A stretch of DNA of 64,000 nt from Thermotogaceae bacterium (GTDB lineage: Bacteria > Thermotogota > Thermotogae > Thermotogales > Thermotogaceae), in the NCBI GenBank assembly GCA_027077795.1, contig JALWTT010000006.1, positions 124,001-188,000 of the forward strand, given 5' to 3'. The notes beneath the pieces were generated by a model. The model saw only the letters and a program-made list of their open reading frames with translations. It was not told where the DNA came from and ran no database searches. A program made the position numbers and the translations under genes. Of this stretch, positions 11,540 through 61,749 are shown piece after piece (position 1 is the first letter of the stretch; the number at the start of each line of letters is the position of its first letter).

Positions 11540-12942
11540 GCCTGATAAAAAAGAGCCTGGCGTTTTCCTCTGCAACCTTTGTTTCCCGGATAACGGGACT
11601 TCTGAGGGACATATCCCTGGCGGTCGTTTACGGAGCGGGAAAGGTCCTGGACTCGTACTTCGTGTCGATAATTTTCCCTTTTTTCTTCAGAAAAATCTTC
11701 GGTGAAGGTGCGTTAGCTTCTTCCTTTGTTCCTCACTACAGATCGGTGGAAAACAAGGATGAATTCGTTTCATCCGTTTTGAATGTTCTCGGAATAACCA
11801 CAATGGCAATTGTTTTGTTGATAGAGCTTTACCCTGGAATTGTACCCATGTTGTTTGCCCCCGGATATCCTCAAGAAGTTACGGCTGAGGTGAAAAAACT
11901 GGTGAGAATAAGTGTTTTGCTCGTACCTCTCATGTTCTTCTGGGCAACCTTCTATTCTGTGCTCAACAGCCATAAGAAGTTCTTCTTTCCGGCTCTCACT
12001 CCACTGTTTATGAACATAGGGGTTATAGCGGGTACACTTCTTGGAAAGGGTACACTTTGGAGCGTCACGGGCTTTGTTATAGGGGGAGCCGTTTCAACGG
12101 TTATGCTTGGGCACGAAGCGCTGAAATATTTCGAATACAGGTTCGTGTTCAAAGGATTTGGGGGGTTTCTCCCGGACTTTTTGAAAGCCACTGCATCTGT
12201 CATGACGAATCAGCTTAATCTCCTTGTTGATACACTGGTCGCGTCTTTTCTCGAATTTGGGGCTGTGAGCTCGATACAACTGGCTTCAAGGCTTTACCAG
12301 TTTCCCGTTGGGTTGTTCGTAGTGGCCGTTTCCACCGTCTCTCTGGTTGAGATGACGGAACGAGAAGCCAGAAAAGACGCATCCTCTGCGGCTCTCTTTC
12401 TGTCACTTCCATCGGCGATTGGGTTGTTTGTTCTCTCAGATGGGGTTGTTAATCTCCTGTATTCATTCGGAAACTTTTCCAGTCAAGCTACATTCCTGAC
12501 CTCAAGGGTTTTGAAAATGTACTCCCTTGGCATAGTGTTTTACTCCTTATACCTGGTTTCCTTGAGATACCATCATTCTGCAAAGAGAATGAACATTCCC
12601 TTTGTATCGTCACTTTTGGTGTCAGGTATAAACATAATTTTGGATTTTCCTTTGGGTTTTTCTCTGGGTGCACCTGGTGTGGCGCTGGCAACATCCATAT
12701 CCAGTATGGCTGGTGTGGCATTCTTCGGAATCAGAAAAGAGATAAAACTGGATTGGTGTGAATTCACGAAGGTAAGCATCTCCAGTGCTGTGATGGGTTT
12801 CGTGGCGTGGTTCATTGGAAGATCCGGAGGAAAACTTGAAACGGCACTGGCGATATCAGTGGCTTTGGGGGTGTACTTCACCATGATGAAACTTCTGAAG
12901 TCCAGAGTCCTGGATGAGGTGATCAGTCGTAGAAAACACTGA
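11536..12942 (+). CDS. murJ: Lipid II flippase MurJ
   Basis: MurJ (MviN) moves lipid II across the cytoplasmic membrane for peptidoglycan synthesis. The 468 residues hold about 12-14 transmembrane helices. The N-terminal family motif is present (FVSRITGLLRDI near residue 15), as is RKIFGEGALASSFVPHY near 55, with the conserved FGEGALA block. The size is slightly short of the usual 500-520 residues because the last helices are compact. The ATG overlaps the transporter gene by 4 bases. The 3' end overlaps the 3' end of the opposing Memo gene by 20 bases, so both stops lie in each other's coding sequence and there is no room for a terminator. Confidence 0.92.
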   Translation: MSLIKKSLAFSSATFVSRITGLLRDISLAVVYGAGKVLDSYFVSIIFPFFFRKIFGEGALASSFVPHYRSVENKDEFVSSVLNVLGITTMAIVLLIELYPGIVPMLFAPGYPQEVTAEVKKLVRISVLLVPLMFFWATFYSVLNSHKKFFFPALTPLFMNIGVIAGTLLGKGTLWSVTGFVIGGAVSTVMLGHEALKYFEYRFVFKGFGGFLPDFLKATASVMTNQLNLLVDTLVASFLEFGAVSSIQLASRLYQFPVGLFVVAVSTVSLVEMTEREARKDASSAALFLSLPSAIGLFVLSDGVVNLLYSFGNFSSQATFLTSRVLKMYSLGIVFYSLYLVSLRYHHSAKRMNIPFVSSLLVSGINIILDFPLGFSLGAPGVALATSISSMAGVAFFGIRKEIKLDWCEFTKVSISSAVMGFVAWFIGRSGGKLETALAISVALGVYFTMMKLLKSRVLDEVISRRKH

Positions 12943-13756
12943 GGTATCCGACAACTTGAGTGGTGTCCCCAGATACATCTCCACTTGTCGCGTGTTTTAA
13001 AATCTGAGGCTTTCCGAGGTTGAGTAGTATCAGGACGGCAACTGCTCCATAGCCACACATCGTTATGTTGTTTTCGTATATGTAGATGTAGAGCTTTTCA
13101 AGATCGCTCTCCTCTATGGCCTCGATGATTAGAGAATCTTTTTTAACAGTTGTCCACTGGCTTTCATAATGATTCAGATCGGTTGAAGCTATCACCACGG
13201 TGGAAGGGTTGAATTCCAAGTATTTTGATATGACACGAGAGAGGTCTTCTGAGGACCTGGGTGATTGATCTTTCATGGTTATTGGGACTATTTTGAAGGA
13301 ATTCCCATAAAGGTACTGCAAAAACGGGAGCTGAACTTCAATAGAGTGCTCGAAAGCGTGGGCTGAAAGATCTGCCTGAGCTATGTCGGAATTTTCGGTT
13401 ATAACCTTGACCGCATCTTCGTCCACTTCGATTTCCCCAAGGGGAGTTTCCCAGGTACCAGACGGATACACACTCACAGCGGGGCCATATCCCGTGTGGT
13501 TCGGGCCAATCAGTATAACCGTTGAAGGTTTTCCTTTTTTTGAAAGCTCGTAGTATCCCCAAGCTGCAACTTGTCCACTGTAAACATATCCAGCGTGTGG
13601 GCTGATGAGCCCAACGGGCTTTCTCAACAGCTCATCTTTTGGTTCTGGGAGCTTCCCCGGGCCAATTGGCCCCATGAAGAGATCTTCTATTGTATCGACA
13701 AGCATGTTTTTACCCGATGGGTAGAAAACACCCGCGACAACTGGCTTTCTGTTCAT
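12923..13756 (-). CDS. Memo-family protein (AmmeMemoRadiSam system protein B)
   Basis: A 277-residue member of the Memo/AMMECR-associated family, structurally related to extradiol dioxygenases but of uncertain activity in bacteria. Conserved blocks include PHAGYVYSG, GPNHTGYG, EHSIEVQLPF and STDLNHYE, which hold the histidines expected to bind metal. The frame is open to 13837, but the conserved start is the ATG at 13756 (NRKPVVAGVFYP), which overlaps the secretin stop by ATGA and has GGTGGTCGGA before it. It is the last gene of the long pilus/replication operon. The partner AMMECR1 and radical-SAM genes often linked to it are not next to it here. Confidence 0.85.
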   Translation of the reverse strand: MNRKPVVAGVFYPSGKNMLVDTIEDLFMGPIGPGKLPEPKDELLRKPVGLISPHAGYVYSGQVAAWGYYELSKKGKPSTVILIGPNHTGYGPAVSVYPSGTWETPLGEIEVDEDAVKVITENSDIAQADLSAHAFEHSIEVQLPFLQYLYGNSFKIVPITMKDQSPRSSEDLSRVISKYLEFNPSTVVIASTDLNHYESQWTTVKKDSLIIEAIEESDLEKLYIYIYENNITMCGYGAVAVLILLNLGKPQILKHATSGDVSGDTTQVVGYLSVFYD

Positions 13757-16700
13757 CTCTTTCCGACCACCTTTGCCGTTATGAATATATCCAGATTTCT
13801 GGTTTCCTGAGTGATGGACTCTGTTCTGAACAACCATCCAATTATAGGAAGATCTCCCAAAATTGGCAATTTTTCAACTGTTTTAGCTTCTGTTTCTCTG
13901 GTTAGGCCTCCTATGACGAGGGTTTGGCCATCCTCGAGAACCACCCTCGTTGTTGCAGCTCTTCTGTTTTGAGTGATCACAGGATAGCTCCCTTCGACCT
14001 CTGATATGGACACGTTGACAAGAAGATCAATCTTCCCATCTGAGCGTACGTAGGGGGTTATCTCAAGCCTTACTCCTATGGGATACGTCAGCCTGGTTCC
14101 ATCAGGAGTTATGAAAGTCTTCTCTCCTCCTATCTCTATGACGGCTTTTTCACCGTTCATGGTTGTCACACTAGGGGAAGCGAGAACCTTTGACTTGCTC
14201 TTCTCACTTTTTCCGGTTATCCCGAGGCTGACATCACCTCCCAGGAGCCCTTTCAGGTAGCTTTCGTAATCTGAAGCTGAAAGTATTTTCGTCTTCAGCC
14301 TTATTCCCGAGTTGTTTATCTCAACATCTCCTGATCCGGACGAAATGTTTACTCCTGCAGAGGAACCAGAATTTTCGTTCGCTTGCTCTTCTACTATTCT
14401 CACCTCTATGGAAACCTGGGGGGGGGATTTCTCAAGTATGGAGATGAAGTTCTTCACGATTCCGTAGGCTATTGAGTTTAGATTTCTCACTATCACCACT
14501 CCAGTTGTGTCATCGTAGAATATCTTTCCCCCCATACTCTGAACTAGCTCCTGAAGCTTCCCAAATCCATAAGCTATCTTGGCAACGATGCTCTTTCCCA
14601 TCTTCGTCAGGTAGTATATTCCATCTATCTCCTCCAGGTTGTAACCGAACCTCTCCAAGAGATCTCTCATATCTGAGAGGTTTAAACTCTGAACGTTCAA
14701 CGTTATACGCTCACTGGGAACATCCACAAAAACTATGCTCTTTTTGAAACCTTCCGATAGTTTTTTAATGAGCTGTGACAGTGGGGCGTTTTCCACGTTT
14801 ATGTTAGCTTTTTCACCTTTAAATCTCACATCGAACATCATATTAGAGGACGTTGATTCCGATGTGAACTTTTCCACGGTCTTCTTTACGTAGTACACAT
14901 CTCCTACCTTTTCCAGTTCGTATCCGAAGTTCCTCAAAATATCCGATAGGTCTTCAAGATCGATGTCCGTCAAATTCAGCGTTACGGGGATGTCAGGTGA
15001 GTCCACGAAGACCACGTTTTCGGAGAGCTTGTCCGCGACCCTTGATATTATCTCCGCAAGTGTGGCACCGTTGCTTCTCAGGTTTACTCTTTCGCCTTTC
15101 AGCTCCACCTGGAGCTTTTCAGGTTTCTTTAAAGAGGCGGTTGGTTTTGCCGATGTGCTGGTAATTTCCGTACTGGGTTTCGTCTCTTTCAATTTTGAAA
15201 GGCTATTCTTCTCTCTGAGTTCACGTATGTAGAATATCTTTCCTTCTTCATCTACCTGAGCACCTAATTTTCTCACCACATCCAAGAATTCATCGAAGCT
15301 CACGTTCTCAAGGTACAAGCTGACTGGTGTCGACAGCTTGTCAATGGCAACGACGCTCTTTCCCAGATCCTCCAACACCTCTTTGACTATCTCGCCTAAC
15401 GGTAGGTTGTCAGATTTCACCGTTATTTTTCCATCCTTGACGGACACCGGCCTTGAAACACCACTGAGGATTTCCTTTATCATCTTCATTGCTTTATCAA
15501 CGGATTCTTCCTTCTTTCCAAAGAGCACTATCTTGTCACTTCCAGCGACTCTGAATACTTCCACGTCTTTCACATATTCCTCGATTTTTTTCGCAGTGTT
15601 GAGTTGCTCTTGGGAAACACCGGGTAATTCCATTATCTTCATAACGAGGTTCTCCTCTTCTCCAGTGGATGTGAAGACCTTCTTCAACAGGGCTATCGCC
15701 GAGTCGATTTCGTCTTTGGTCCCTACGAGAACAATCTGCTTCCCGCTAACGGGGACGATCTTCAGATTCTCAAACACCTTTGACAGGACGTTCGCAGCAC
15801 TAGCTGAGTTCGCCACGGAAACTATCCTCATTTCTTCTGCCTTCTGCACGTTGAGCTTTTCGAATTTCTTCAAGAATTCCTTTGCCTCGTCTATTCTCTC
15901 CTTCTTCCCTTTCACAACCAGTCCTATTTTTCCAGGAATTATCTTCAGATCTTCAAACAGCTGCCCCAGGATTTCAGCTACTCCCATGGGATCTGGAACG
16001 GTGATGATCTCCGTGACCTCTTTTTCCTTTGTCTCCACTGAAAATTTCTTTATGGCTTCCTTCGCGTCGTTTATCGTCTGCTCCGGACCAACTAATATCA
16101 GTTCATCACCAACCAAAGCTATTCTCAAATTATCTCCAAATATAACAGACAAGGCTTGAACAACGTCACCTGGATTCGGGACTTTCATGATTTCATACCG
16201 GACCTGTTCTTTCTCGCTCGCCTTTATGTAACCTAGCATTCCGACATTCAGTAAAAGCTTCTTGGCACTTTCTATCACAACTTCTGGCCCATACAGAATG
16301 AGTTTGTTACTTGAAACTTCGATCGCCTTCAAATTGGGGAATATGGATCCTATGACTTTCTTTGCAGCTTGTACGTCTTGGACATCAAGTACTCTGTAGA
16401 CTGGAAGGCGTCCTTTTGCACCTGCACTGGGCAACATCAAGCCAGATTCTGTGAGAGCTTTCTCAGCGCTGGTGATATCAAGCTTTGCCCCATAGATCAT
16501 GATAGATTTACCGGGCAATTTCGTGAAAATCTTGAGTTTGCTTCCAAATATTTCATTCAGCATTGAAGCGGCAGTTTGTTTATCGGAAACGTCCAGAATC
16601 TTGTAAGATTCCTTCTCTTCCTGCTTTTCAGCGAGTGCTTGGAATATCCTCTTGATGTCCTCGGGAGTCCCCGTAGTGACGAGCATTGATTTGTTGGAAA

Positions 16701-17382
16701 GAGACTTGAGAAGCCCTTCTCTTATGTCCTGAAGAATGGCCTCCTCACTATCGGCTCCCCAGAACTTTAGAAGCTTTTGTTTTATCTCTTCAGGATTTCT
16801 CGCTATGTACATGGTGCCGTTTGGTAGGTATGTGTAGCTGAGGTTCATGGAGATTATGAGGGTTCTCAAAGCATCCTCTGGTGGGGAGTTGTTGAGTGTG
16901 AGCGAGGGAATCTTCATCCCGGAAACCCCACTTGAGATCGAGATGTTTATTTTAAGAGACTCGGACAAGTATTTCACTACATCGCCAAACGTCATGTTTT
17001 CGTTGAAAGAATAATCATATCTATTTCTACTTTTCAGAAAGGTCACCGTGATTTCTTTTCCTTTGGAAACGACAACTGGCTTGGAAGGGATGATGGTGTG
17101 GAAGGATACGAAAGAGTCGCTGTTCAACGAATAGACTGCCACAAAATCTAGAGGGCCGGATTGAACTGGTACCATGGAAAAGTTACTCTGGCAGTTCCTC
17201 AGAATCAGAGTGTAAACTGTGCCTGAAAAGCTCGTATCATCTTCGATCTCCACGTTTTTTTCAAGACTCATAACTATTGAAACAGAGGCATCGTTGTTTT
17301 TAACGTTTATTTTCTCCAAGCAACTTGAAAATGCCACTAGGGTTGCTGTAATGAGGAAAATGAAAGAGATTTTTCTCATCAT
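13753..17382 (-). CDS. pilQ: PilQ/GspD-type secretin with many tandem N-domains, lipoprotein signal
   Basis: Outer-membrane secretin channel for a type IV pilus or secretion system, 1209 residues, far longer than the usual 600-750. A lipoprotein signal ends in AFSSC (Cys21). An N0/STN-like module lies near 122-200. Six N1-like (KH-like) modules of about 55-70 residues follow, at about 259-315, 328-382, 396-448, 457-508, 517-570 and 580-640, each with an IL-V-GP/GK strand before a helix. Three more STN-like modules are at about 650-720, 760-835 and 850-928. The secretin domain (935-1205) has VLASPSVTTMNGEKA and VIGGLTRE plus LPILGDLPIIGWLFR. The start overlaps the upstream gene (ATGA). A short proline/serine/threonine-rich linker is near 730-755. 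Confidence 0.92.
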   Translation of the reverse strand: MMRKISFIFLITATLVAFSSCLEKINVKNNDASVSIVMSLEKNVEIEDDTSFSGTVYTLILRNCQSNFSMVPVQSGPLDFVAVYSLNSDSFVSFHTIIPSKPVVVSKGKEITVTFLKSRNRYDYSFNENMTFGDVVKYLSESLKINISISSGVSGMKIPSLTLNNSPPEDALRTLIISMNLSYTYLPNGTMYIARNPEEIKQKLLKFWGADSEEAILQDIREGLLKSLSNKSMLVTTGTPEDIKRIFQALAEKQEEKESYKILDVSDKQTAASMLNEIFGSKLKIFTKLPGKSIMIYGAKLDITSAEKALTESGLMLPSAGAKGRLPVYRVLDVQDVQAAKKVIGSIFPNLKAIEVSSNKLILYGPEVVIESAKKLLLNVGMLGYIKASEKEQVRYEIMKVPNPGDVVQALSVIFGDNLRIALVGDELILVGPEQTINDAKEAIKKFSVETKEKEVTEIITVPDPMGVAEILGQLFEDLKIIPGKIGLVVKGKKERIDEAKEFLKKFEKLNVQKAEEMRIVSVANSASAANVLSKVFENLKIVPVSGKQIVLVGTKDEIDSAIALLKKVFTSTGEEENLVMKIMELPGVSQEQLNTAKKIEEYVKDVEVFRVAGSDKIVLFGKKEESVDKAMKMIKEILSGVSRPVSVKDGKITVKSDNLPLGEIVKEVLEDLGKSVVAIDKLSTPVSLYLENVSFDEFLDVVRKLGAQVDEEGKIFYIRELREKNSLSKLKETKPSTEITSTSAKPTASLKKPEKLQVELKGERVNLRSNGATLAEIISRVADKLSENVVFVDSPDIPVTLNLTDIDLEDLSDILRNFGYELEKVGDVYYVKKTVEKFTSESTSSNMMFDVRFKGEKANINVENAPLSQLIKKLSEGFKKSIVFVDVPSERITLNVQSLNLSDMRDLLERFGYNLEEIDGIYYLTKMGKSIVAKIAYGFGKLQELVQSMGGKIFYDDTTGVVIVRNLNSIAYGIVKNFISILEKSPPQVSIEVRIVEEQANENSGSSAGVNISSGSGDVEINNSGIRLKTKILSASDYESYLKGLLGGDVSLGITGKSEKSKSKVLASPSVTTMNGEKAVIEIGGEKTFITPDGTRLTYPIGVRLEITPYVRSDGKIDLLVNVSISEVEGSYPVITQNRRAATTRVVLEDGQTLVIGGLTRETEAKTVEKLPILGDLPIIGWLFRTESITQETRNLDIFITAKVVGKR

Positions 17383-17867
17383 CTTATTACATACAACCCT
17401 CCTTTCATCACATCGAGTACAATAAGTCCCATGCTTGACACATAGATTATCATATACCTACCGTCGATCAGTTGGTTAACACTTTGAAGGACACTTTTTC
17501 CAGCTATGTTCAGAAAAATCTTCTTGTCCCCACTTTTATCGGTTATATAGCCTCCAAATTTTATGTATCCCACACTCAGATCGCTGGTTAATATGAGCTT
17601 ATTCAGATCTTCTCTTCCACCTTTTATCACATACGGTGACAGCGGATCAGGAGCCGCTATCCCCTTCTTACACACCTTTACATAGCTCTTTATGAAATCA
17701 GGTGTGATATCCTGAACACTTACACTGAACTTCTTCAAATTTACTCTTCTCGTTTCAGCCACCATGTCCCTTCCTCCGGTAGATAACCCGGGCTTAAAGA
17801 AGTAAACAAGGGCCACTCCCCAAAGGGCTATCGCTATCATGAGTAGTACTTTCGCTCTTTTGGTCAC
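17379..17867 (-). CDS. Inner-membrane protein at the PilP position of the pilus operon
   Basis: A 162-residue protein with one N-terminal transmembrane helix (about residues 6-25) and a periplasmic beta-rich remainder that contains LSPYVIKGGREDLNKLIL, VGYIKFGGYITDKSGDKKIFLNI and GKSVLQSVNQLIDGRYMI. PilP proteins link the PilN-PilO pair to the secretin and are read just before pilQ, as here. Unlike classical PilP it has no lipobox, and similarity by eye is limited to architecture, so the assignment rests on position. The start is GTG at 17867 (GTGA overlap with the pilO-like gene), and its stop overlaps the secretin start. AAAGGAGGG near its end probably serves the secretin gene, at an unusually long 14-base spacing. 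Confidence 0.65.
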   Translation of the reverse strand: MTKRAKVLLMIAIALWGVALVYFFKPGLSTGGRDMVAETRRVNLKKFSVSVQDITPDFIKSYVKVCKKGIAAPDPLSPYVIKGGREDLNKLILTSDLSVGYIKFGGYITDKSGDKKIFLNIAGKSVLQSVNQLIDGRYMIIYVSSMGLIVLDVMKGGLYVIR

Positions 17868-18322
17868 TCTCTCAGCTCCAAGATCCTCACTTCTATAACG
17901 ATGTTTGCATAAGATTCAACGGGTGTGGATATAGTCATGGGATTCTCCAGCTTGTTGTTCACTTTCAGAGATTCTATGTAAGAGTTTGGATTCTTGGTGA
18001 AATAGTCCAAAATTTTAATGAGTTTTCTACCATTCACCCGCCCGCTTATTGATATTGTACCTCTGTTTTTAACAATTTTCATACCTTTGAAAATGTCAAT
18101 ATTCAAATCGGGTGGTTTCTTGAGAACTTTCTTGAGGTCTTCCATGGCCTTCAGTTGCTTGATGTACCTGTCATAGGATTCCTCTAGGATAGGCAATTTG
18201 TCCTCTATAGCCTTTTTCAAATCTCTCGTTTCTCTGTACCTTGGAACTGTTGCCAAAGCCAAAGAGACTATCAAGATTGTCAGCCCAAGGATCAAGAGGT
18301 ATTTTCTCTTAATGGCTCGCAA
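17864..18322 (-). CDS. pilO: PilO-like inner-membrane assembly protein
   Basis: A 152-residue protein with a short basic N-terminus (RAIKRK), one transmembrane helix (about 8-27), a coiled coil (about 30-70) and a C-terminal alpha/beta domain (about 75-152). This is the layout of PilO, which pairs with PilN in the periplasm to align the pilus machine. The C-terminal part has the ferredoxin-like strand order GTISISGRVNGRKLIKILDYF and IEVRILEL. The start is TTG at 18322, preceded by GGTGAT and overlapping the upstream gene by 14 bases. Sequence identity to known PilO is not obvious; the call uses architecture and the order M-N-O-P-Q. Confidence 0.75.
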   Translation of the reverse strand: MRAIKRKYLLILGLTILIVSLALATVPRYRETRDLKKAIEDKLPILEESYDRYIKQLKAMEDLKKVLKKPPDLNIDIFKGMKIVKNRGTISISGRVNGRKLIKILDYFTKNPNSYIESLKVNNKLENPMTISTPVESYANIVIEVRILELRE

Positions 18323-18875
18323 AGTTGATCACCACCTTGGACATTTTTTTTCCCTCGGTTGTGTTGACATCAAATAAGACGTCCTCCTTCACCGTTCCCA
18401 AATCCTTCAGAGAGTTCACCATGCCATCGCTTTTCCTTGAGGCTGTGTATATCTCGTACAGGGTGATATTCATCTTCTTTGAATCCATGTCCAAACTTGT
18501 CAAGATGATCCAGTCGTTCTCGGATCTCTCGAAGTTGTTCATGACCTCTGAAAGCAACCTCTTTGAAAAATACGCGGATTTCAGGAATTGTATTATGTCT
18601 TTCTTCTGTCTGACCAGCACTATGAAATTGGTGTCATACTTGTTTATGAGGTCGTCCAGGTTGGTTATATCCACCTCTCTACCCCTTATGTTCAAATGAA
18701 GTTTCCTGATAATCTCAGCATGTTCCAGCCTTATCTTTTCGACTTCGTGTCTCCACACATACTCCAGTAGTACCCTGCTACCGAAGGCTGGCAGTAACAT
18801 GATCAGCAGGAATATCGTGGCGGATCTGAAAGAGACTACCCTACTTTTTTTGTTGTAAAGATTTAACTTTTCCAA
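18309..18875 (-). CDS. pilN: PilN-like inner-membrane assembly protein
   Basis: A 188-residue bitopic protein. A short cytoplasmic tail, NLYNKKSR, is the kind of segment by which PilN binds PilM. It is followed by a transmembrane helix (about 17-38), a heptad-rich helix (about 40-85) and a C-terminal ferredoxin-like domain with DWIILTSLDMDSKKMNITLYEIY. The start is TTG at 18875, seven bases after AGGAGGT, and lies 35 bases inside the pilM-like gene, so the two are translationally coupled. The order and overlap fit the pilMNOPQ operon seen in many diderm bacteria. Confidence 0.78.
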   Translation of the reverse strand: MEKLNLYNKKSRVVSFRSATIFLLIMLLPAFGSRVLLEYVWRHEVEKIRLEHAEIIRKLHLNIRGREVDITNLDDLINKYDTNFIVLVRQKKDIIQFLKSAYFSKRLLSEVMNNFERSENDWIILTSLDMDSKKMNITLYEIYTASRKSDGMVNSLKDLGTVKEDVLFDVNTTEGKKMSKVVINFASH

Positions 18876-19800
18876 ATTCCATACCTCCTCTTAACAAGAG
18901 GCCGTTTAATCCCTTCACGTTTTTCACCACTACGTTCACGTTCAAAACCTCAGAAATCGCATTTGAAAGAGGTAAAGATAAGCAGATGGGATCCGTTACC
19001 AGTGTGAAAAGGCTTACATCGCCCATTGCTAGTTCTTTACCTGTTCTCAGCAACTGAACGAGTTCTCTGTTTATTTCCATGGACAGATTCGTGAAGCCCT
19101 CTTTGAGGAATGCGTACAACTCGCTACTCCCATCTATCCCTCCAAGGAGATTAACCTCAGGCATAGTCAAGCCGAACTCATCTTTCAGAACCTGGAACAG
19201 CTCTTCCAAGTTTGGGTACATACTTCTGACACCTACGATTTCACCTTCAGACACCAGGAACATGCTTGTGTAATTTTTGAAGAAGTTTGTGACTACGTAG
19301 ACCGCATTCCCATGTGTGGGGAATGAAAGCACCTGAAGGTATTTCATAGAATCAGGTATTACTATATCGGGTTCCGGAAGTTCCAGCGATTTCAGCTTCC
19401 TAACCACGTTTTCTTCTATATCTGTGTTCTTGGCAACTGCGAAAAGATATTTCCCACTTCTCTTTCCAACGGGTGTGACTGATATGCTATCTATCGGAAT
19501 TCCCATGATTCTGGCTGCCTCTACTTTACCTATGTTGATGATTTCCCTTATTCTCTTGACTCTGAGCGGTACGGGGGCATCTATGAAAAGTGTCATCCCT
19601 GTGTCGATGGTTGTCACAATCACGTCCTCGGGTTGGAATTTGAACTTGAGGATTTTTTTCCACTCTTCTCTGTTCTCTGAAAAAACGATGTTTTGATAAG
19701 TTATCAGGATTTTCCCGAAGGAGTATTTAGCTCTGGAAACCGCGAAGTAGTTCCCCGAGATATCCACCGCTACTATGTTCTTTGGAATTGGCCAGTTCAT
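18841..19800 (-). CDS. pilM: PilM-like actin-fold pilus assembly protein
   Basis: A 319-residue cytoplasmic protein with an actin-like ATPase fold. The N-terminal phosphate-1 type strand NIVAVDISGNYFAV is at about residues 8-21. A second-lobe segment AVYVVTNFFKNYTSMFLVSEGEIVG near 170-195 fits the second nucleotide-binding strand pair, and NLLGGIDGSSELYAFLKEGF near 238-257 the adenosine motif. PilM binds the tail of PilN at the inner membrane. The start ATG at 19800 overlaps the preceding small gene by ATGA. The protein is a little shorter than typical PilM (about 350 residues). Confidence 0.8.
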   Translation of the reverse strand: MNWPIPKNIVAVDISGNYFAVSRAKYSFGKILITYQNIVFSENREEWKKILKFKFQPEDVIVTTIDTGMTLFIDAPVPLRVKRIREIINIGKVEAARIMGIPIDSISVTPVGKRSGKYLFAVAKNTDIEENVVRKLKSLELPEPDIVIPDSMKYLQVLSFPTHGNAVYVVTNFFKNYTSMFLVSEGEIVGVRSMYPNLEELFQVLKDEFGLTMPEVNLLGGIDGSSELYAFLKEGFTNLSMEINRELVQLLRTGKELAMGDVSLFTLVTDPICLSLPLSNAISEVLNVNVVVKNVKGLNGLLLRGGMEFGKVKSLQQKK

Positions 19801-20150
19801 TTGATCCCCACCACCATCCTACCGGTTACGGGGTGGAAAGAAACGTATCCGTGTTTCATGTAAACAGTTCCAGCCTTTTCTATGAATCCCATTCTGTACC
19901 TTATAAAACCATTTTTGATGTACTCTATGTCGAAATCCCTTTTTGAAAGGAAATGGTTCCCCAGGGTTCTAACACCGGCGTTCGATATGATGATCTTACC
20001 TTTGGTGTACCTGGACCTCATGATCTGGGAGAAAACATACGCTTTGAGCTCCATGGGGCTGATCTTGTCGCTTTTAACGAGTTTGACTGTGGGAAGAACC
20101 ATCACAGTGCTCAGTACTATTATTATCAACACCCAAATGATTTGGGTCAT
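19797..20150 (-). CDS. Small N-terminally anchored protein in the pilus operon
   Basis: A 117-residue protein with one N-terminal hydrophobic helix (residues 4-24) and a short periplasmic beta domain (IIISNAGVRTLGNHF, then YVSFHPVTGRMVVGIK). The size and the hydrophobic N-terminus recall minor pseudopilins, but there is no leader-peptidase site of the G/A-FTLIE type, so I do not call it a pilin. It lies between pilC and pilM with TAATG and ATGA overlaps on either side, which makes a role in the same machine likely. The function is unknown. Confidence 0.65.
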   Translation of the reverse strand: MTQIIWVLIIIVLSTVMVLPTVKLVKSDKISPMELKAYVFSQIMRSRYTKGKIIISNAGVRTLGNHFLSKRDFDIEYIKNGFIRYRMGFIEKAGTVYMKHGYVSFHPVTGRMVVGIK

Positions 20151-21367
20151 TACATTCCAACTCCCATGCTACCTTGATAGCTGAATATTGCGGAGTAGAT
20201 GCTCAGGGCGATAAATGCTATGGCTCCACCAACGAGCGCGATCATCATAGGTTCAAGGAGTGATACAAACTTCCTGACTGCTATTCTGAGCTGCTGTTCG
20301 TAAAATGTGGCGACTTTCTCCATAACTTCGTCGACCTTACCAGTAGCTTCTCCGGTACCCGCCATTTCATAAACAAGTTGAGGTACCAGTCTCGTTTCCG
20401 CCATGGCATCTCTTAAGGTTCTTCCTTCCTTTATCAGTTCCACAACCTTTTCGGCTCTCTCCTCGAATATCCTACTACCCGTTGCCTGCGCCGCCATTTC
20501 TATCGCCGTGGTTAGGGTAACACCAGCTGAAACCAGTATTCCAAGAGTCCTTGAAAATCTCTCCAAAGCTGAGAACGTGTGAATTTTTCTAAGCGGTGGA
20601 AATAGGGAAGACAGATTCTCTTTGAATTTCCTTCCGCTCATCGTTGAAAAGTAAAACTTCAATCCAATTATTGTTCCAACGAGGGCAGCTATTATCTCGT
20701 AGGAATACCTGATCATGAAGTCCCTCATACTCATGAGTGTTCCCAGGAATCCTATGGGTTTCATTCCTATGCTGTGAAGAAGCATAGGGATTATGTAAAA
20801 CATCATCACAAATACCACGAGAATAGCGAATCCACCGATGAACATGGGGTACCTCATGGAAGCTTTGATCTCATCCGAGAGTTGCCTGGAGGATTCGTAA
20901 AACTCTGCCAACCTCTCCATTGTTCTATCGAGAGTTCCTCCCTCTTCACCTGCCTTAATCAGGTTTATGAAGACTGGCTCGAATCCTCCCACCTCGGCGA
21001 AAGCTTCGGAAAGGCTTCTGCCGGATTCTATAGAGTCGATTATCGAGTTGAGCTTGTTTCGGAACCTTCCAGAGAATACCTCCTGTTCTGCAAGAACGCT
21101 CAAGGCTTCCTTTATTCGCACTCCTGCGGAAATCATGGTGGCAAATTGGCGGCAGAAAACAGCTACTTCCGCTGTCGATACTGCAAATATCGAGCGGCCT
21201 GTTCTCGCCCCTTCCGCGGCTTTCTTCGCCTTTCCAGGCTTTATGTCAACCACGACAAATCCCCTGGACGAGAGTTCAGATAACGCTCCTATTTCACTGT
21301 TTGATTCGATAACCCCTTTGACTTTTCTTCCACCCTTGTCATACGCAGTGTAAGAATAAACGGGCAT
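20150..21367 (-). CDS. pilC: Type IV pilus / type II secretion inner-membrane platform protein (PilC/GspF)
   Basis: Polytopic platform protein of 405 residues that couples the assembly ATPase to the growing pilus. The N-terminus reads MPVYSYTAYDKGGRKVKGVIES, as expected for GspF/PilC. Two T2SSF repeats follow, each with a LIKAGEEGG or MAGTGEATGKVDE signature (about residues 150 and 330) and long hydrophobic helices. There are three transmembrane segments. The start ATG at 21367 directly follows the dnaE stop (TGAATG), with AAAAGGAGTGAG as SD. It is full length and should be functional. Confidence 0.93.
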   Translation of the reverse strand: MPVYSYTAYDKGGRKVKGVIESNSEIGALSELSSRGFVVVDIKPGKAKKAAEGARTGRSIFAVSTAEVAVFCRQFATMISAGVRIKEALSVLAEQEVFSGRFRNKLNSIIDSIESGRSLSEAFAEVGGFEPVFINLIKAGEEGGTLDRTMERLAEFYESSRQLSDEIKASMRYPMFIGGFAILVVFVMMFYIIPMLLHSIGMKPIGFLGTLMSMRDFMIRYSYEIIAALVGTIIGLKFYFSTMSGRKFKENLSSLFPPLRKIHTFSALERFSRTLGILVSAGVTLTTAIEMAAQATGSRIFEERAEKVVELIKEGRTLRDAMAETRLVPQLVYEMAGTGEATGKVDEVMEKVATFYEQQLRIAVRKFVSLLEPMMIALVGGAIAFIALSIYSAIFSYQGSMGVGM

Positions 21368-23809
21368 TCACTCACTCCTTTTAAATTCTTCCCAACATCC
21401 AATTCTAACATCCAGGTATCGAATGTTACACTCTATTTTTACATCTAACTGTTTTGTCCAATTCACCACTCCTCTCGCTGGATCGACGATCACCACGAGT
21501 TCTCCGCTTGGTAGCCCTCTCGCAAATGTGACAGATACTCCGTCACTTAGAATCCCATCACCAAGAGATATGACATGGGCAGCTCGGGCTTCCCACAGCG
21601 AATAAGCTTCAGCGATCTTTGCGCGCTTGCTCTTAAACTCAGGTGTTGATAGTGCAAACCCCATGGCTTCTCTCTCCAGCAATATCTTATCCCTGATTCC
21701 TTCTGGGTTCAGCTCCTTTTTTTTCTCCCCAAATCTCATTTTGAGCTTTTCCAAAACATCGGGCGGCTCACCAGTTTTGAGAGATCTCAAGGCTTCCCTC
21801 CGGCTATTGTAAATTTCATCGAACGCACCAGCCTTGATGAGGTTCTCGGTTGCGGCTTGGCCCACAACTTGTGCGATTTCAGAGACCTTTTTGAGCTTTT
21901 CTGATTTTATCTTCTCCGGGATTTCCCTTCCTACGCCTCTTATTACTATTAGAGGGAGAATTATCCAATTTTCTCCCCAGTTCCCATCTGGTTCGAGAAC
22001 ACTTGGATTCAAGACTCTGTACCCGAAGAACTGCGCTTCTTTCACCAAGATGTCTATTTTCTCCCTCTCAAATGTCGAATGTTCTATGAATGACAGAAAA
22101 AACTGAGGGAAAAAGTTTCTTTTGTAGTAGGATAAATAGTAGCTCAAGTGAGCGTACGCGACGCTGTGGGATTTGTTGAAAGCATAGGACGCGAATTCCT
22201 TTATGAAATTCACCATTTCCTTCACGATTTTCGTGTCGTACCCGTTTTTCTTCATCCCACTCTCCAGCTTCGTCAGAACCTCGCCCATCTTCCTTCTGTC
22301 TTTTTTCGCCATGGCTTTTCTCAGTTCATCGGCTTCTGAGAGGCTCATGTTTGCCAATCTAACAGCCATGAGCATTATCTGCTCTTGGTATATAGCGAGC
22401 CCCTGAGTTTCCTCTAGAATATCCTCAAGATCTTTCAAGGTGTCCCAACGTTTCTCCAAACGCCTTCTGAGATATTCCATATGAAGCTTCGCCTTCAAAG
22501 GACCTGGCCTGTTCAGAGCGAGCACATGCGAAAGCTCAAGGATGTTCTTTGGTGATACATACTTGGAGATTTTTCTGGCTTCTGGGGATTCTAGCTGGAA
22601 CACCGCGCTCGTGGTTCCACTGGATATCATTTCATAAACCGACGAATCATTCATGGGAATTGTCTCTAAACTGATACCAGCTCTTTCTGAGACTTTTCTT
22701 AGAAAGGAAAGCGTTTTCAAACCGAGGATGTCAATCTTCTCCACTCCTATGGATCTCAGTGACTCCATATCGTACTCACAAACCTTCAGATTCCCGTCCA
22801 TATAATATGGGAGAATCATATCCTCCACGGAGAGCACCACTCCGGCTGCGTGGATGCTCCTCTTCACGGGCAATCCGTAGAGCATTTGGAAGACCTTTCT
22901 GGAGTTTTCCCCTATATCTCTGAGGGCTTTAACCAGGGAGTTTTCTTTGAGTGTAGCATAAGTCGATATCAGAGAAACAAACTTGAAATTCTTCTGTAGA
23001 ATCTTTATCAGCTCTCTCCTCTTTTCATCTTCAACATCGATGTCTACATCGGGCATTTCGTTTCTACCCTCGTTTATGAATCTCTCGAAGATCAAGTTGT
23101 ACTCCAGGGGATTGACAGAGGTGATTCCCAAGACATGTGCTAAAAGTGATCCGACAGCACTTCCCCTTCCCGGCCCAACCCAGATTCCATGTCCTTTAGC
23201 CGCTTCAACTATCATCTGAACGGCTCTGAAGTATCCCTCGAATCCTTTCTTTTTGACCAGAGCAATTTCCCTTTGGATTCTGCTTTTCCAGTCTTCTGGA
23301 TAATCACCGATGTTTACCCAATTTTTTGGAGGAGATGGAAATACCTGTTTCTCTTTCAAATCGTAAACTTCGAATCTTCCAATAACTGATGGATCCGTTT
23401 CCTTAAATTCCAAAGAGAAATCCCCGTCCAACGGCTTCAAGCCGAGTATCTTTCTCATCACCTCATAACCTCTTCTCTCCGATTTGTCGAGGTACATAAC
23501 AGGCCGGAATGAAGAGAAATCCTTAACGATGACATCTTTCAATTTCTTTGTGCCGGTATTTCTGAAAAAGACCAAACTTTTAAAACCAATCTTGTTTTTT
23601 GCTATGAGTATTTTCTTGCCTACAACGAGAGAATGTATGGGAATCATTCCATTTTTTCTCATGGTTTCGTTGAAGAGCACGTGGGCGTGAAAATTTGGGT
23701 CGGCGATGAGGACTGATCTGTACCCGAGGTCCTTGAATCTCCTCACTGCTTTTTCTATATCTATCACGGATCCTCTGAAGGCATACGGCGTGACGAGAAC
23801 GGGAATCAT
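21368..23809 (-). CDS. dnaE: DNA polymerase III alpha subunit (DnaE), short form with reduced PHP domain
   Basis: Replicative-type C-family polymerase, 813 residues from ATG 23809. The fingers/palm block has GPGRGSAVGS near residue 212 and the catalytic acids in PDVDIDVED near 253-260; VAYAHLSYYLSYYKRNFFP and a helix-hairpin-helix region follow. E. coli DnaE has 1160 residues. Here about 150 residues are missing before GPGRGSA, the PHP metal-binding motif HxH is replaced by TPYAF, and the C-terminal domain is short. T. maritima, as I recall, has a DnaE of similar length as well as PolC. The frame also allows TTG at 23830 overlapping the HD-GYP stop; I prefer ATG 23809 because GGTGAT lies three bases before it. 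It is co-transcribed with pilC, which is odd. Confidence 0.9.
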   Translation of the reverse strand: MIPVLVTPYAFRGSVIDIEKAVRRFKDLGYRSVLIADPNFHAHVLFNETMRKNGMIPIHSLVVGKKILIAKNKIGFKSLVFFRNTGTKKLKDVIVKDFSSFRPVMYLDKSERRGYEVMRKILGLKPLDGDFSLEFKETDPSVIGRFEVYDLKEKQVFPSPPKNWVNIGDYPEDWKSRIQREIALVKKKGFEGYFRAVQMIVEAAKGHGIWVGPGRGSAVGSLLAHVLGITSVNPLEYNLIFERFINEGRNEMPDVDIDVEDEKRRELIKILQKNFKFVSLISTYATLKENSLVKALRDIGENSRKVFQMLYGLPVKRSIHAAGVVLSVEDMILPYYMDGNLKVCEYDMESLRSIGVEKIDILGLKTLSFLRKVSERAGISLETIPMNDSSVYEMISSGTTSAVFQLESPEARKISKYVSPKNILELSHVLALNRPGPLKAKLHMEYLRRRLEKRWDTLKDLEDILEETQGLAIYQEQIMLMAVRLANMSLSEADELRKAMAKKDRRKMGEVLTKLESGMKKNGYDTKIVKEMVNFIKEFASYAFNKSHSVAYAHLSYYLSYYKRNFFPQFFLSFIEHSTFEREKIDILVKEAQFFGYRVLNPSVLEPDGNWGENWIILPLIVIRGVGREIPEKIKSEKLKKVSEIAQVVGQAATENLIKAGAFDEIYNSRREALRSLKTGEPPDVLEKLKMRFGEKKKELNPEGIRDKILLEREAMGFALSTPEFKSKRAKIAEAYSLWEARAAHVISLGDGILSDGVSVTFARGLPSGELVVIVDPARGVVNWTKQLDVKIECNIRYLDVRIGCWEEFKRSE

Positions 23810-23826
23810 GATATCACCGCGAGTGT

Positions 23827-26073
23827 TCAACTGCTCCCTTCCAATCTTTTTACGACTCTATTCAGGAAGATCTCTGTGAGTTCGGGATCGAGCTGAGTTC
23901 CAGCAGCCTCTCGCATCCTCCTCATAGCTTCATCCAGCGGAAGAGCTTTCCTGTACGGCCTGTTGCTTCTCATAGCATCCCAAGTGTCTGCAATGGAGAT
24001 TATTCTTGATATCAGTGGGATGGAATCTCGCCTCAAGCCGTCTGGATATCCATTGCCATCCCATCTCTCATGGTGATGCCTTGTGTATATGGCTATATCT
24101 TTCAGCCTGTCCGAATATATCAGGGCTTCATAACTCCAAACGGGGTGCTTCTTGATCAATTTGTACTCTTCATCATTCAACCTTCCACTCTTTCTCAGTA
24201 CATCTCCTGGAACAAGGATCTTACCGAGATCGTGCACAAGTCCCGCCCAGTAGACTTTCTCCAAGTCTTTTTCTGAGAATCCCAATTCCTTTGCGATCTC
24301 CACAGATATCCTCGCTACACTTTCAGAATGTCCTTTCGTGTAAGGATCATGCATCTCCACTATGTGTATTATCGACAGTATGATCTCCTTTTGAAATTCC
24401 TCTCTAATTTTTGACAGGCGTTTAAAGGCGAGGAAAGCTGAGGCTATATTTCCCAGAGCCGAGAAAACCCTTATGGAGTCTCTTGAAAACTCCTTCTCAC
24501 TTCCTTTGGCTATGTCGAGGGTCAAATGTCCAAGGAATTCCTCATCAGCTTTGAACTGACTTATCAAGGTCTTCGAGGTGGGGAGAATGGCATCCTCAAA
24601 GATCTTCTTCTTTTTGACATCCATGTTATCAAGGGTCTTATCGGCTATGTTCTCCACTAGCGCAATTCCATCTCCAAGTCTTTGAGAATCTCTGCTCCTC
24701 CTTATGTCTATGAAGTCCTCCTTTCTGAATGTCACCCCTCTGAGTTTCTTTATATTGTGACCGATTGCATGAACGAACCTCCAATTCTTGCCGTTCACCA
24801 CAGCTACACTCCCATAGTCAGCCTCTGGTATTATTTCCATCGCCCTTTCCAGTATTTCTTTCAAAAATTCCTCTTCGTCCTCAAACTCATAAGTACCTTT
24901 GACTATTTTCGATGTGATTGCTATTAGGTTTTCCAATTTGTTGATGGTCAACTCTTGTTCTTTGTATGTACTTTCCAGTTCCTCGTTCATTGCGGTTATC
25001 TCCTCATTCGTAGCTGTAAGCTCTTCGTTAAGGATTTCTAATTTCTTTCCAATCTTTCCGTATTCGTTCGATACTATGATGACCATTCCAGAACTCAGTG
25101 CGATAGATCCGTAAGGGATGAGCTGGGGAAATCCGTTGAAAAAGATTAGTGATAGTTCATCGTGGGCTACGACAAGCAGATAGAAGAGTAAAGGAGAAGT
25201 GTACCTTTTATCGAGGAGGTATACGAAGACAGTGGCAGTTCCGAGTGGTATCAGCTCAATCGGATAGAGAAGCCTTATGTCGTTTATAAAAAGGCTCACA
25301 ACAAACGATGAAGCCGACAGGATTATGACAATCTTTGAGAATTTCCATGAACCTGTTGAATTCTTCTCGATTCCAGCCACCAATGGAAATGGTGACAGAA
25401 AAGAGCTCAATGTGGTTATAACCATTATCGAATCTCTCAGGAAGTTTGCAGACAAGAAATTCAGTGGTGTGTAATCCATAACTACCAGTCCAGAGAGAAA
25501 CAGTCCGCCACCTATCAGTCTGTATGAGAGTTTCCTGTTTTCATCGAGAAATTCTCTCGAGAGAGCTTCTACAAATAGTGAGAAGAAAACGGGCAATATA
25601 AAAGCGAGAAGGAAAATGTGAGATCCAAGGAATTTTATCAAAGAAAATCTCGTGAACGCTGCTTCGGAACTGGAAATGTATGGAGGTCTCGTTATGCCAA
25701 CTATGTCATAGCCGGGTTCTATCTCTATCTCTATGGACCTTTTGCCTTCGGGTACGTTGAGGTACACCGGATCATTCCAAAATGTATTCACATCTTTTCT
25801 TCCAACAGACATGATCTTTTCTCCATCAGCTCTGATTTCCATGTAACGTCCAAAAAATTGCGGTATTATCATCGCATCACCTTTCACATCAACTTCTTTC
25901 TTGATGATTAGTTTTGTCTTTCTCTGCTTTAAAAATGGAACTTTCACTTGTCCCTCCTCGCTGTTCCAAACTCCAGCAAGGCTCTCTCCAGCGGGTGAAA
26001 ACGCCCACTCGTAGATGGAAGACAGGGTGACGATCACCAGAATCTGGATTAGCAGAGTTTTAAGAATACTCAA
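23827..26073 (-). CDS. Membrane HD-GYP domain protein with 7TM-like sensor and GAF-like module
   Basis: Putative cyclic-di-GMP phosphodiesterase, about 748 residues. In order: an N-terminal membrane helix, an extracytoplasmic beta-rich domain (about 30-145), seven or so membrane helices (about 155-330, 7TMR-DISM-like layout), a coiled coil rich in NEEITAMNEELE, a GAF-like region (about 370-530) and an HD-GYP domain with HDLGK and HHHERWDGNGYPDG. The metal and GYP residues are intact. The open frame begins at TTG 26091, which lacks an SD; TTG at 26073 has GGGGTGAT three bases upstream and is my choice. It is the first gene of the long minus operon with dnaE and the pilus genes, which suggests c-di-GMP control of the pilus. 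Confidence 0.88.
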   Translation of the reverse strand: MSILKTLLIQILVIVTLSSIYEWAFSPAGESLAGVWNSEEGQVKVPFLKQRKTKLIIKKEVDVKGDAMIIPQFFGRYMEIRADGEKIMSVGRKDVNTFWNDPVYLNVPEGKRSIEIEIEPGYDIVGITRPPYISSSEAAFTRFSLIKFLGSHIFLLAFILPVFFSLFVEALSREFLDENRKLSYRLIGGGLFLSGLVVMDYTPLNFLSANFLRDSIMVITTLSSFLSPFPLVAGIEKNSTGSWKFSKIVIILSASSFVVSLFINDIRLLYPIELIPLGTATVFVYLLDKRYTSPLLFYLLVVAHDELSLIFFNGFPQLIPYGSIALSSGMVIIVSNEYGKIGKKLEILNEELTATNEEITAMNEELESTYKEQELTINKLENLIAITSKIVKGTYEFEDEEEFLKEILERAMEIIPEADYGSVAVVNGKNWRFVHAIGHNIKKLRGVTFRKEDFIDIRRSRDSQRLGDGIALVENIADKTLDNMDVKKKKIFEDAILPTSKTLISQFKADEEFLGHLTLDIAKGSEKEFSRDSIRVFSALGNIASAFLAFKRLSKIREEFQKEIILSIIHIVEMHDPYTKGHSESVARISVEIAKELGFSEKDLEKVYWAGLVHDLGKILVPGDVLRKSGRLNDEEYKLIKKHPVWSYEALIYSDRLKDIAIYTRHHHERWDGNGYPDGLRRDSIPLISRIISIADTWDAMRSNRPYRKALPLDEAMRRMREAAGTQLDPELTEIFLNRVVKRLEGSS

Positions 26074-26132: not shown

Positions 26133-26161
26133 ATTTTACTACAGATATGTTGTTTTGAAAA
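26133..26161 (-). promoter_or_regulatory. Candidate promoter of the HD-GYP/dnaE/pil operon
   Basis: Reading the minus strand, TTTTCA (26161-26156) and TAAAAT (26138-26133) are 17 bases apart. Transcription would start near 26126, giving a leader of about 53 bases before the TTG at 26073. The -35 matches only four of six consensus bases. The T-rich end of tRNA-Arg lies just upstream. Confidence 0.45.
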
Positions 26162-26163
26162 AG

Positions 26164-26237
26164 CGTGCCCGGCGGGATTTGAACCCGCGACCCCCGGATC
26201 CGCAGTCCGATGCTCTATCCAGCTGAGCTACGGGCAC
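26164..26237 (-). tRNA. tRNA-Arg, anticodon GCG
   Basis: Full cloverleaf of 74 bases. The 7-bp acceptor pairs GTGCCCG with CGGGCAC. The D arm is GCTC/GAGC with A20 (an arginine identity base). The anticodon stem is TCGGA/TCCGG with loop CTGCGGA, giving anticodon GCG for codon CGC/CGU. The variable region is GGGTC, and the T arm GCGGG/CCCGC has loop TTCAAAT. The discriminator is G; the next bases are CTT, so CCA is not encoded. Most bacteria read CGN with ACG modified to inosine, so G34 is notable. Confidence 0.95.
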
Positions 26238-26241
26238 GTTT

Positions 26242-26270
26242 TAAAAGAAAAGGCGGGTAAATCCCCGCCT
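26242..26270 (-). terminator. Rho-independent terminator after tRNA-Ser
   Basis: On the minus strand AGGCGGG (26270-26264) pairs with CCCGCCT (26257-26251) over a 6-base loop, followed by TTTCTTTT. It abuts the CCA of tRNA-Ser and lies before tRNA-Arg. Confidence 0.75.
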
Positions 26271-26359
26271 GGCGGGGGGAGTGGGATTCGAACCCACGGT
26301 GGGGAAAACCCCACACTTGCTTAGCAGGCAAGCGCCTTAGGCCACTCGGCCATCCCCCC
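26270..26359 (-). tRNA. tRNA-Ser, anticodon GCT, CCA encoded
   Basis: Class II tRNA with a 7-bp acceptor (GGGGGGA/TCCCCCC), anticodon stem CTTGC/GCAAG and loop CTGCTAA giving anticodon GCT (codons AGC/AGU). A long variable arm (GTGGGG TTTT CCCCAC) is typical of serine tRNAs. The discriminator is G and CCA is encoded at 26272-26270. Its promoter lies directly upstream and its terminator directly downstream. Confidence 0.97.
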
Positions 26360-32110: not shown

Positions 32111-33595
32111 TTGAGTTCGACTCTCCTTGAAGTCAGGGGCATAGTAAAGAGGTTCCCAGGAGTTCTGGCTCTTGATGGTGTGAATTTTGATTTGAGAGAA
32201 GGTGAAGTTCACACCCTCTTGGGTGAGAATGGCGCCGGAAAGACCACCTTGATGAACATCATCTTTGGTCTTTACAGGGCAGATGAGGGAGAAATCCTCT
32301 TCAAGGGAAAGAGAGTGCACATCAGGTCCCCCTATCATGCTCTTCAGCTTGGTATAGGTATGGTTCAGCAGCATTTCACTTTGGTTCCTTCTTTCACTGT
32401 AGCGGAGAACATTGCTTTGGGTACAAGGGATACACCTAGTAGAGTCGCGGCGAAGATCAGGGGAATATCTGAAGAATACGGTCTGGAGGTCGATCCGCAT
32501 GCGAAGGTATGGCAACTTTCTGTTGGAGAGAGACAAAGAGTTGAGATAATAAAGCTTCTTTACGCTGGGGCAAGGGTGGTTATACTCGACGAACCGACGG
32601 CAGTCTTAACTCCTCAGGAAACAGAAGCGCTTTTCAAAGCTGTGAGGAAGATGACGTCCCGTGGAACTGGCGTTATATTCATTTCACACAAACTGAACGA
32701 GGTTATGGAGATCTCCAGCAGGGTCACCGTCTTGAGAAAAGGAAAGGTCATTGGAACCTTAGAGAGAGGAGAGTTTGATCAGAACAAATTGGCTCGGATG
32801 ATGGTTGGAAGAGAAGTTGTTATGGAGATAGAAAGGGAAAAAGCAAGGCCAGGAGAGCTCGTTATAAAGGTCGAAGATGTCCACGCGAGAAGTGATAAGG
32901 GTCATATTGCACTCAACGGAATCTCGCTTGAGATCAGAGCAGGTGAGATACTCGGTATAGCTGGCGTTGCCGGTAACGGGCAGAGGGAATTGGCAGAGGT
33001 TATAACGGGTTTGAGAAGAGTCGAAAGCGGAAAAATCGAGTTTCTCGGAAAGGATCTAACGAATACAAGTGTCATAGATAGGATTCTAGCCGGGATAGCG
33101 TACATTCCGCAGGACAGAAAGGGGATTGCTCTGAGCCCAAACCTTTCAGTTGCAGAGAATCTGTTTTTGAGAAGGAAAGAAAAGAAGGTGTGGTTCAACA
33201 AGAGGGAGATTTTTGGGCATGCTAGGAGGTACATCGAGGAGTACAAGATAAAAACTCCATCTCCTGCAACTGCTGTGAAATACCTATCCGGTGGTAATAT
33301 GCAGAAAGTTGTCATAGCCAGGGAATTTTCATTGGATCCGAGGCTTATAATAGCCGTCCATCCCACAAGGGGATTGGATGTCGCATCCATGGAATTCGTT
33401 TACCGAAGTTTGATAAAAGCCAGAGATAAGGGGGTTGCGATCTTGCTTCTGGCCGGAGAGCTTTATGAGATATTCAACCTCTCCGACAGGGTCGGGGTTA
33501 TATACGAAGGTAAAATCGTTGGGTATACGACGCCAGATCCAACACCGGAGAACATAGAGAAGATAGGTCTGATGATGGCAGGTGTTGCTGTATGA
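32111..33595 (+). CDS. Nucleoside/simple-sugar-type ABC transporter ATPase (YufO/NupO-like)
   Basis: Double ABC ATPase of the RbsA/YufO class, 494 residues. The first domain has GENGAGKTT, Walker B VVILDEPTAVLTP and switch SHKLNE; its signature is the variant LSVGERQRVEI. The second domain has the degenerate Walker A GVAGNGQRELAE, the YIPQDRKGIAL block and LSGGNMQKVVIARE, with HPTRGLD where Walker B is expected, all usual for this class. The frame opens at 32060, but the promoter -10 lies at 32071, so the start is TTG 32111, with AAGGAGGTGAG before it. With the two permeases it should import nucleosides; the tdk gene next to it agrees. Confidence 0.92.
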   Translation: MSSTLLEVRGIVKRFPGVLALDGVNFDLREGEVHTLLGENGAGKTTLMNIIFGLYRADEGEILFKGKRVHIRSPYHALQLGIGMVQQHFTLVPSFTVAENIALGTRDTPSRVAAKIRGISEEYGLEVDPHAKVWQLSVGERQRVEIIKLLYAGARVVILDEPTAVLTPQETEALFKAVRKMTSRGTGVIFISHKLNEVMEISSRVTVLRKGKVIGTLERGEFDQNKLARMMVGREVVMEIEREKARPGELVIKVEDVHARSDKGHIALNGISLEIRAGEILGIAGVAGNGQRELAEVITGLRRVESGKIEFLGKDLTNTSVIDRILAGIAYIPQDRKGIALSPNLSVAENLFLRRKEKKVWFNKREIFGHARRYIEEYKIKTPSPATAVKYLSGGNMQKVVIAREFSLDPRLIIAVHPTRGLDVASMEFVYRSLIKARDKGVAILLLAGELYEIFNLSDRVGVIYEGKIVGYTTPDPTPENIEKIGLMMAGVAV

Positions 33596-61702: not shown

Positions 61703-61706
61703 ACTG

Positions 61707-61715
61707 TGTTATAAT
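61707..61715 (+). promoter_or_regulatory. Extended -10 promoter of the chemotaxis receptor gene
   Basis: TGTTATAAT: TG, one base, perfect TATAAT (61710-61715), just past the polA stop. The predicted start is near 61721, 29 bases before TTG 61750. It shows that the longer open frame from 61699 is not the true start. Confidence 0.6.
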
Positions 61716-61749
61716 CGGGGCCGAAAATTTCACAAGGGAGGTTTTTACA

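Follow-up and report, generated by a model that had tools for sequence, protein, structure and literature searches.

We propose that an old type IV pilus cluster gained the DNA polymerase gene dnaE through a single move, and that chance packing accounts for how closely the two now lie together, with no machine joining pilus and polymerase; we put the probability of this reading at roughly 0.77. The genes lie in a 64 kb stretch of DNA, hereafter the window, from a genome of 1.7 Mb. The arrangement is mostly ordinary, with one interesting derived polymerase. The original prediction had suggested that a c-di-GMP enzyme, a DNA polymerase and a pilus are coupled on one transcript, with either pilus-driven DNA uptake or simple gene packing as the reason.

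The predicted single-strand run, with overlaps or gaps under 20 bases, was confirmed from the coordinates of all genes, which lie on the minus strand, and no terminator-like site was found at any junction of the run. It starts with a membrane HD-GYP gene (23827..26073) with GAF-like and HD_5 domains (Pfam HD_5, E 2.1e-39; weak GAF_2), whose TTG start codon is preceded by GGGGTGAT. A gap of 17 nt separates this gene from dnaE (21368..23809; Pfam DNA_pol3_alpha, 5.5e-50, and finger, 9.1e-43), and a gap of 0 nt separates dnaE from pilC (20150..21367; Pfam T2SSF, 6e-61). Then come a gene for a small membrane protein (19797..20150), pilM (18841..19800), genes in the positions of pilN (18309..18875), pilO (17864..18322) and pilP (17379..17867), and a PilQ-like secretin gene (13753..17382; Pfam Secretin, 7e-37), with successive overlaps of 1, 4, 35, 14, 4 and 4 nt from pilC through the secretin. 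The run had been thought to end at pilQ. It extends one gene further, to a gene for MEMO/AmmeMemoRadiSam system protein B (12923..13756; Pfam Memo, 4.5e-75; TIGR04336 above its cut-off) that overlaps the secretin gene by 4 nt; this gene meets murJ tail to tail, and the run stops there.

The tightness of the run is uninformative by itself, because 36 of the 42 same-strand neighbor pairs in the window, the block's own pairs included, are less than 20 nt apart (one greedy gene call over the whole window, 53 genes). On this count we rejected tight gaps as a sign of function. Elsewhere in the window, the gene for DNA polymerase I (polA) and one for a dCache chemoreceptor (MCP) share 4 nt at 61699-61702 (window positions 59042-63894), and form another tight pair of unrelated functions. 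The window also includes an ORF of 920 aa (33592-36354) among ABC transporter genes; its branched-chain permease domain is confined to the C-terminus (residues 633-896), and the first 630 residues had no Pfam match.

We sought DnaE and PilC in 61 genomes, the window's genome included. DnaE was found in 59 of these, the matches in G032 and G059 being only short and in PolC-size frames; PilC was also found in 59 (none in G034 or G058), and 57 genomes have both genes. dnaE adjoins pilC in six of the 57 (the window's genome G000, and G001, G002, G003, G004 and G007), which represent genera g1, g2 and g3 of the window's family (14 genomes), and the junction measures -4 to +6 nt across the three genera. 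Thus, the order is not peculiar to this genome and holds in related genera, but it does not reach far: the other 51 genomes with both genes have no dnaE/pilC pair within about 40 kb on one contig, as judged from dnaE flanks in 40 of the 61 genomes and from coordinates in the rest, a comparison that could overlook neighbors separated by the end of a contig. A scan of further genome contigs yielded only three additional, more distant DnaE loci (L005-L007), and a tblastn search with PilC had no hit beside any of them. We rejected wider conservation of the pair, which was found neither in the other 51 genomes nor around these three loci.

The older place of dnaE can be read from its relatives. A gene for an RluD-type pseudouridine synthase (rluD) directly precedes dnaE at 7/7 loci compared from genera g4 and g5, at 4/4 compared from family f2, and at three more distant loci (G047, G056 and G060), and G010 agrees by coordinates; by most start choices the two genes overlap. 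The rluD-dnaE order is absent from the 11 f3 loci and from most of the more distant loci compared, so that it can be called ancestral only in families f1 and f2 and a small number of others. The window's genome has a rluD relative at C6:565576 that is still close to the upstream gene that also precedes it in f2; the gene behind it is a different one, which by eye encodes a sugar kinase. Nor does dnaE come after rluD in G003 and G007.

Phylogenetic analyses of both proteins group the rearranged genomes. All six form one clade in the PilC tree (support 100/100), and the four sampled form one clade in the DnaE tree (support 100/100), which is limited to relatives within the class and leaves out the DnaE fragments of G002 and G004. 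A single move of dnaE, in the ancestor that the three genera share, is the most likely account. A horizontal origin of dnaE is unsupported, as the rearranged genera are one clade in both trees. Their DnaE sequences are about equally distant from those of g4/g5 (38-41% identity) and those of f2 (37-40%). The DnaE stem of the rearranged genera is somewhat long, and PilC shares this long stem.

Of the two neighbors, the pil cluster is the older and dnaE the later arrival, because the series from pilC to the secretin also occurs at the 20 pil loci compared from elsewhere in the family, order and class, in most cases followed by MEMO. Most of the names first given to these genes were supported, including HD-GYP, dnaE, pilC, pilM and the secretin, but pilN, pilO and pilP are named from position. 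The T2SSF matches in the genome are two domain matches, both within pilC, and no other T2SSF-family gene was found. PilM as a single protein had no Pfam match, and its 18-member family had no match to a PilM model; the name is supported by a profile built from 18 relatives, which finds PDB 2ych ('competence protein PilM') with E 5.8e-8. For the PilN, PilO and PilP positions no credible family match emerged with all relatives scanned, and the gene order and sizes fit the cluster. The best NCBIfam model for the secretin is PilQ, with a score below its cut-off. This protein has several N-domain-like repeats in its 1209 aa, and relatives in other genera are longer than 1500 aa.

Two genes outside the block, at C15:268894 (593 aa) and C6:596123 (363 aa), match T2SSE over the cut-off, and their sizes suggest that they encode PilB-type and PilT-type ATPases. 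The small membrane protein may be a degenerate minor pilin that has lost its processing site, as judged from an alignment of 11 relatives. Pfam N_methyl matches one of the 11 (E 0.0035) and does not match the window copy. The relative in G052 (L094:9290-9694) has the N-terminus MKKGYTIVEL.

The DnaE protein is predicted to be a short Thermotogae-type DnaE3 of 813 aa that partners PolC. It carries the motifs GPGRGSA, PDVDIDVED and KIDILGLKTL at residues 212, 253 and 358, and the Asp motifs that we take to be catalytic by reference to E. coli DnaE are kept in all 39 aligned DnaE sequences. PolC is encoded on contig C15 (1702.8 bits against an NCBIfam cut-off of 873). The DnaE N-terminus lacks the HLHTEYS-type motif of the G052 relative and has no PHP domain by Pfam, and no OB or C-terminal domain was matched by Pfam in the 813 aa. 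A structure model from a three-row alignment had a mean pLDDT of 34.4 and was discarded. In the dN/dS comparison, pS is 0.74-0.84 and pN is 0.10-0.29; the synonymous sites are saturated, and therefore these values indicate purifying selection only.

Comparison of 38 order members revealed two changes in the rearranged genomes. A C-terminal tail with an invariant Arg-Pro is present in 32/32 members with dnaE elsewhere and absent from 6/6 rearranged ones, whose new ends differ between g1 and g2/g3, each with two cysteines in the last 45 residues. The second change concerns the stretch xxxLFG, which may be a clamp-binding motif, as read from its place behind the helix-hairpin-helix region. Position 4 of this putative motif is L, V or I in 30 of the 32 (the exceptions are T in G030 and K in G024) and Lys or Arg in all six rearranged genomes. 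It is R in the window's DnaE, which departs from the weak motif xxxLF of DnaE3. This does not exclude membership of DnaE3, because the motif was reported in only 75% of DnaE3 by Timinskas et al. 2013, with only positions 4 and 5 conserved (available text of PMC3919608). Lys or Arg at position 4 would be a further weakening of the motif. Since the six genomes share one ancestor, the tail loss and the motif change count as single events, inseparable in cause from the move.

Signals of transcription fit more than one arrangement. Inside the block, terminator-like sites on the minus strand are limited to two weak ones (25954 and 22826); over the region scanned the count is 20, against 17.8 +/- 5.2 in shuffles. 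Promoter-like sites number 34, with 25.3 +/- 5.6 expected, and are not far above background. The original prediction had noted no terminator in the run, which agrees with its terminator-free junctions. However, a candidate extended -10 element, TGnTARAAT, precedes pilC by 34-39 nt in 6/6 rearranged genomes. In the window it is TGTTAGAAT (21402..21410, minus strand), inside the 3' end of dnaE. Such sites occur six times in the 64 kb, both strands together, and within 55 nt of a gene start for 3 of the 53 genes, pilC included. No clear -35 was found for this candidate, and constraint on the residues encoded there, [DHN][VA][RK][IM], could explain part of its conservation. At this distance from pilC, the 5' UTR would be close to the common T. 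maritima class of 26-32 nt (available text of PMC3636130). Because the element is conserved in all six genomes, pilC may have its own promoter, which would count against one obligatory transcript. Read-through from upstream into pilC is likely, and a shared dnaE-pil transcript is possible.

One observation speaks against pure packing: the tight dnaE-pilC junction survived while DnaE diverged to 51-58% identity between g1, g2 and g3. This could reflect selection for co-expression. Alternatively, then, co-transcription may have been selected for expression level only, with dnaE sharing or supplying the pil promoter and no joint function. dnaE is the first gene of the run in g2 and g3, where a divergent gene lies upstream, and the junctions are tight in all three genera, as this explanation would have it; such junctions are nevertheless normal in the window, and we consider it quite unlikely.

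The HD-GYP gene is a further neighbor of dnaE with a patchy distribution. Full-length relatives are found in G000 and G001 only, that is, in 2/14 family genomes, which makes the HD-GYP link weaker than that between dnaE and pilC. G002, which belongs to the same genus and in the PilC tree lies nearer G001 than G000, has in its place a 93-codon ORF (L041:1425-1706) without a Pfam match, behind tRNA-Ser and tRNA-Arg. This ORF stands behind a leader sequence similar to that of HD-GYP. In G003 and G007 no HD-GYP relative was found upstream of dnaE within the 1.0-1.2 kb of contig available. Most simply, the genus gained the gene and G002 later lost it. A candidate promoter (26133..26161, minus strand; TTTTCA-17-TAAAAT, 9 of 12) lies upstream of the HD-GYP gene, directly behind tRNA-Arg, and a similar sequence can be seen by eye in G001 and G002. 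Immediately before HD-GYP, 26163-26359 is occupied by genes for tRNA-Arg(gcg) and tRNA-Ser(gct); tRNA-Ser is followed by a terminator-like site, and none is listed between tRNA-Arg and HD-GYP.

The HD-GYP enzyme might itself control the pilus through c-di-GMP, with dnaE as a passenger between the two, an explanation that is compatible with the relocation of dnaE and was assessed separately. Its HD and GYP motifs are intact by eye, the ten GGDEF matches in the genome make c-di-GMP signaling plausible, and pN between G000 and G001 is low (0.10) against saturated synonymous sites. However, the rarity of the full-length gene within the family, and its replacement by the short ORF in a member of the same genus, make such control unlikely, and a regulatory link to the pilus is possible in the two species that have the gene. 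Judged by title and start of abstract, the open-access papers found on HD-GYP, type IV pili and c-di-GMP in Thermotoga contain nothing on the arrangement.

The reading that linked pilus, DNA uptake and polymerase would have dnaE and the pil genes co-expressed as DnaE fills in or copies DNA imported by the pilus. The adjacency kept in three genera, with its close junctions, is in keeping with this, as is the presence of comEC and dprA and of natural transformation in Thermotoga strains RQ7 and RQ2 (reported in the available text of PMC5637354). Yet comEC occurs in 14/14 and dprA in 13/14 family genomes, with or without dnaE beside pilC, and the two are equally present in the eight members that lack the arrangement. 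In the window's genome these two genes and those for the PilB/PilT-type ATPases lie elsewhere, outside the block. DNA taken up enters the cell as a single strand that is processed by recombination, a route that needs no special polymerase. The candidate promoter before pilC also counts against co-expression, and if g5 is Thermotoga, natural transformation there occurs without the dnaE-pilC arrangement. Among the open-access papers listed in our searches, we found no description of this arrangement, judged largely by title and start of abstract, and the accessible parts of PMC12926913 and PMC3814617 do not treat it. Thus, we hold coupling to be very unlikely; of the two readings first offered, simple packing, together with relocation, fits better. 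It would be more speculative still to suppose that the PolC-partner polymerase of this clade, which would have lost its tail and clamp motif on joining the pilus operon, took on a new role, working independently of the clamp and being expressed together with the machinery for DNA uptake; we regard this as highly improbable.

Under the relocation and packing account, an old cluster (pilC, the small gene, the pilM, N, O and P positions, the secretin and MEMO) would have acquired dnaE at its head in a single event in the ancestor shared by the three genera, when the gene gave up its former position after rluD. The break, or later decay, may have removed the C-terminal tail, with dnaE coming to abut or overlap pilC. 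DnaE has most likely kept its role as a short DnaE3 partner of PolC, extending primers as its B. subtilis counterpart does, possibly with weaker clamp binding. HD-GYP would be a further, patchy neighbor in one genus.

The block thus offers a polarized case, in a compact genome, in which a replication gene of the essential type has entered an operon of unrelated function, with the end of the protein changing too. If DnaE no longer binds the clamp, these genera could show naturally whether a PolC-partner DnaE needs it. Otherwise, they advise caution: conserved overlapping neighbors in Thermotogota need not share function.

The features of the window's DnaE match the Thermotogae subgroup of DnaE3 as described in the available text of PMC3919608, which accompanies PolC, has a reduced PHP domain and no recognizable OB or C-terminal domain, and shows a weak clamp motif as a group. 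The six rearranged sequences differ from this subgroup in lacking the Arg-Pro tail and in having Lys or Arg at motif position 4, two changes that are new here and are not mentioned in that text. The pil cluster likewise follows the Thermotoga pattern, pilC-x-pilMNOP-pilQ, with identical gene order and with MEMO at the end in most loci compared. In genus g5 the run from pilC to the secretin has seven genes, as implied by the numbering of TM0094 and TM0088, listed as pilC and pilQ in a table of PMC5637354 (available portion). On this agreement, and on the best match of the window's MurJ, which is to PDB 5t77 from Thermosipho, we take the window's genome to be a relative within Thermotogota. The window has dnaE immediately upstream of pilC, whereas in g5 that place is taken by, for example, Obg, nucleotidyltransferase, Dus and rubrerythrin. 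Finally, the short intergenic spaces and many genes per unit seen here recall the compact polycistronic layout of T. maritima, with 3.3 genes per transcription unit and a median intergenic space of 5 bp (PMC3636130, in the part available), and the difference lies only in the particular partners.
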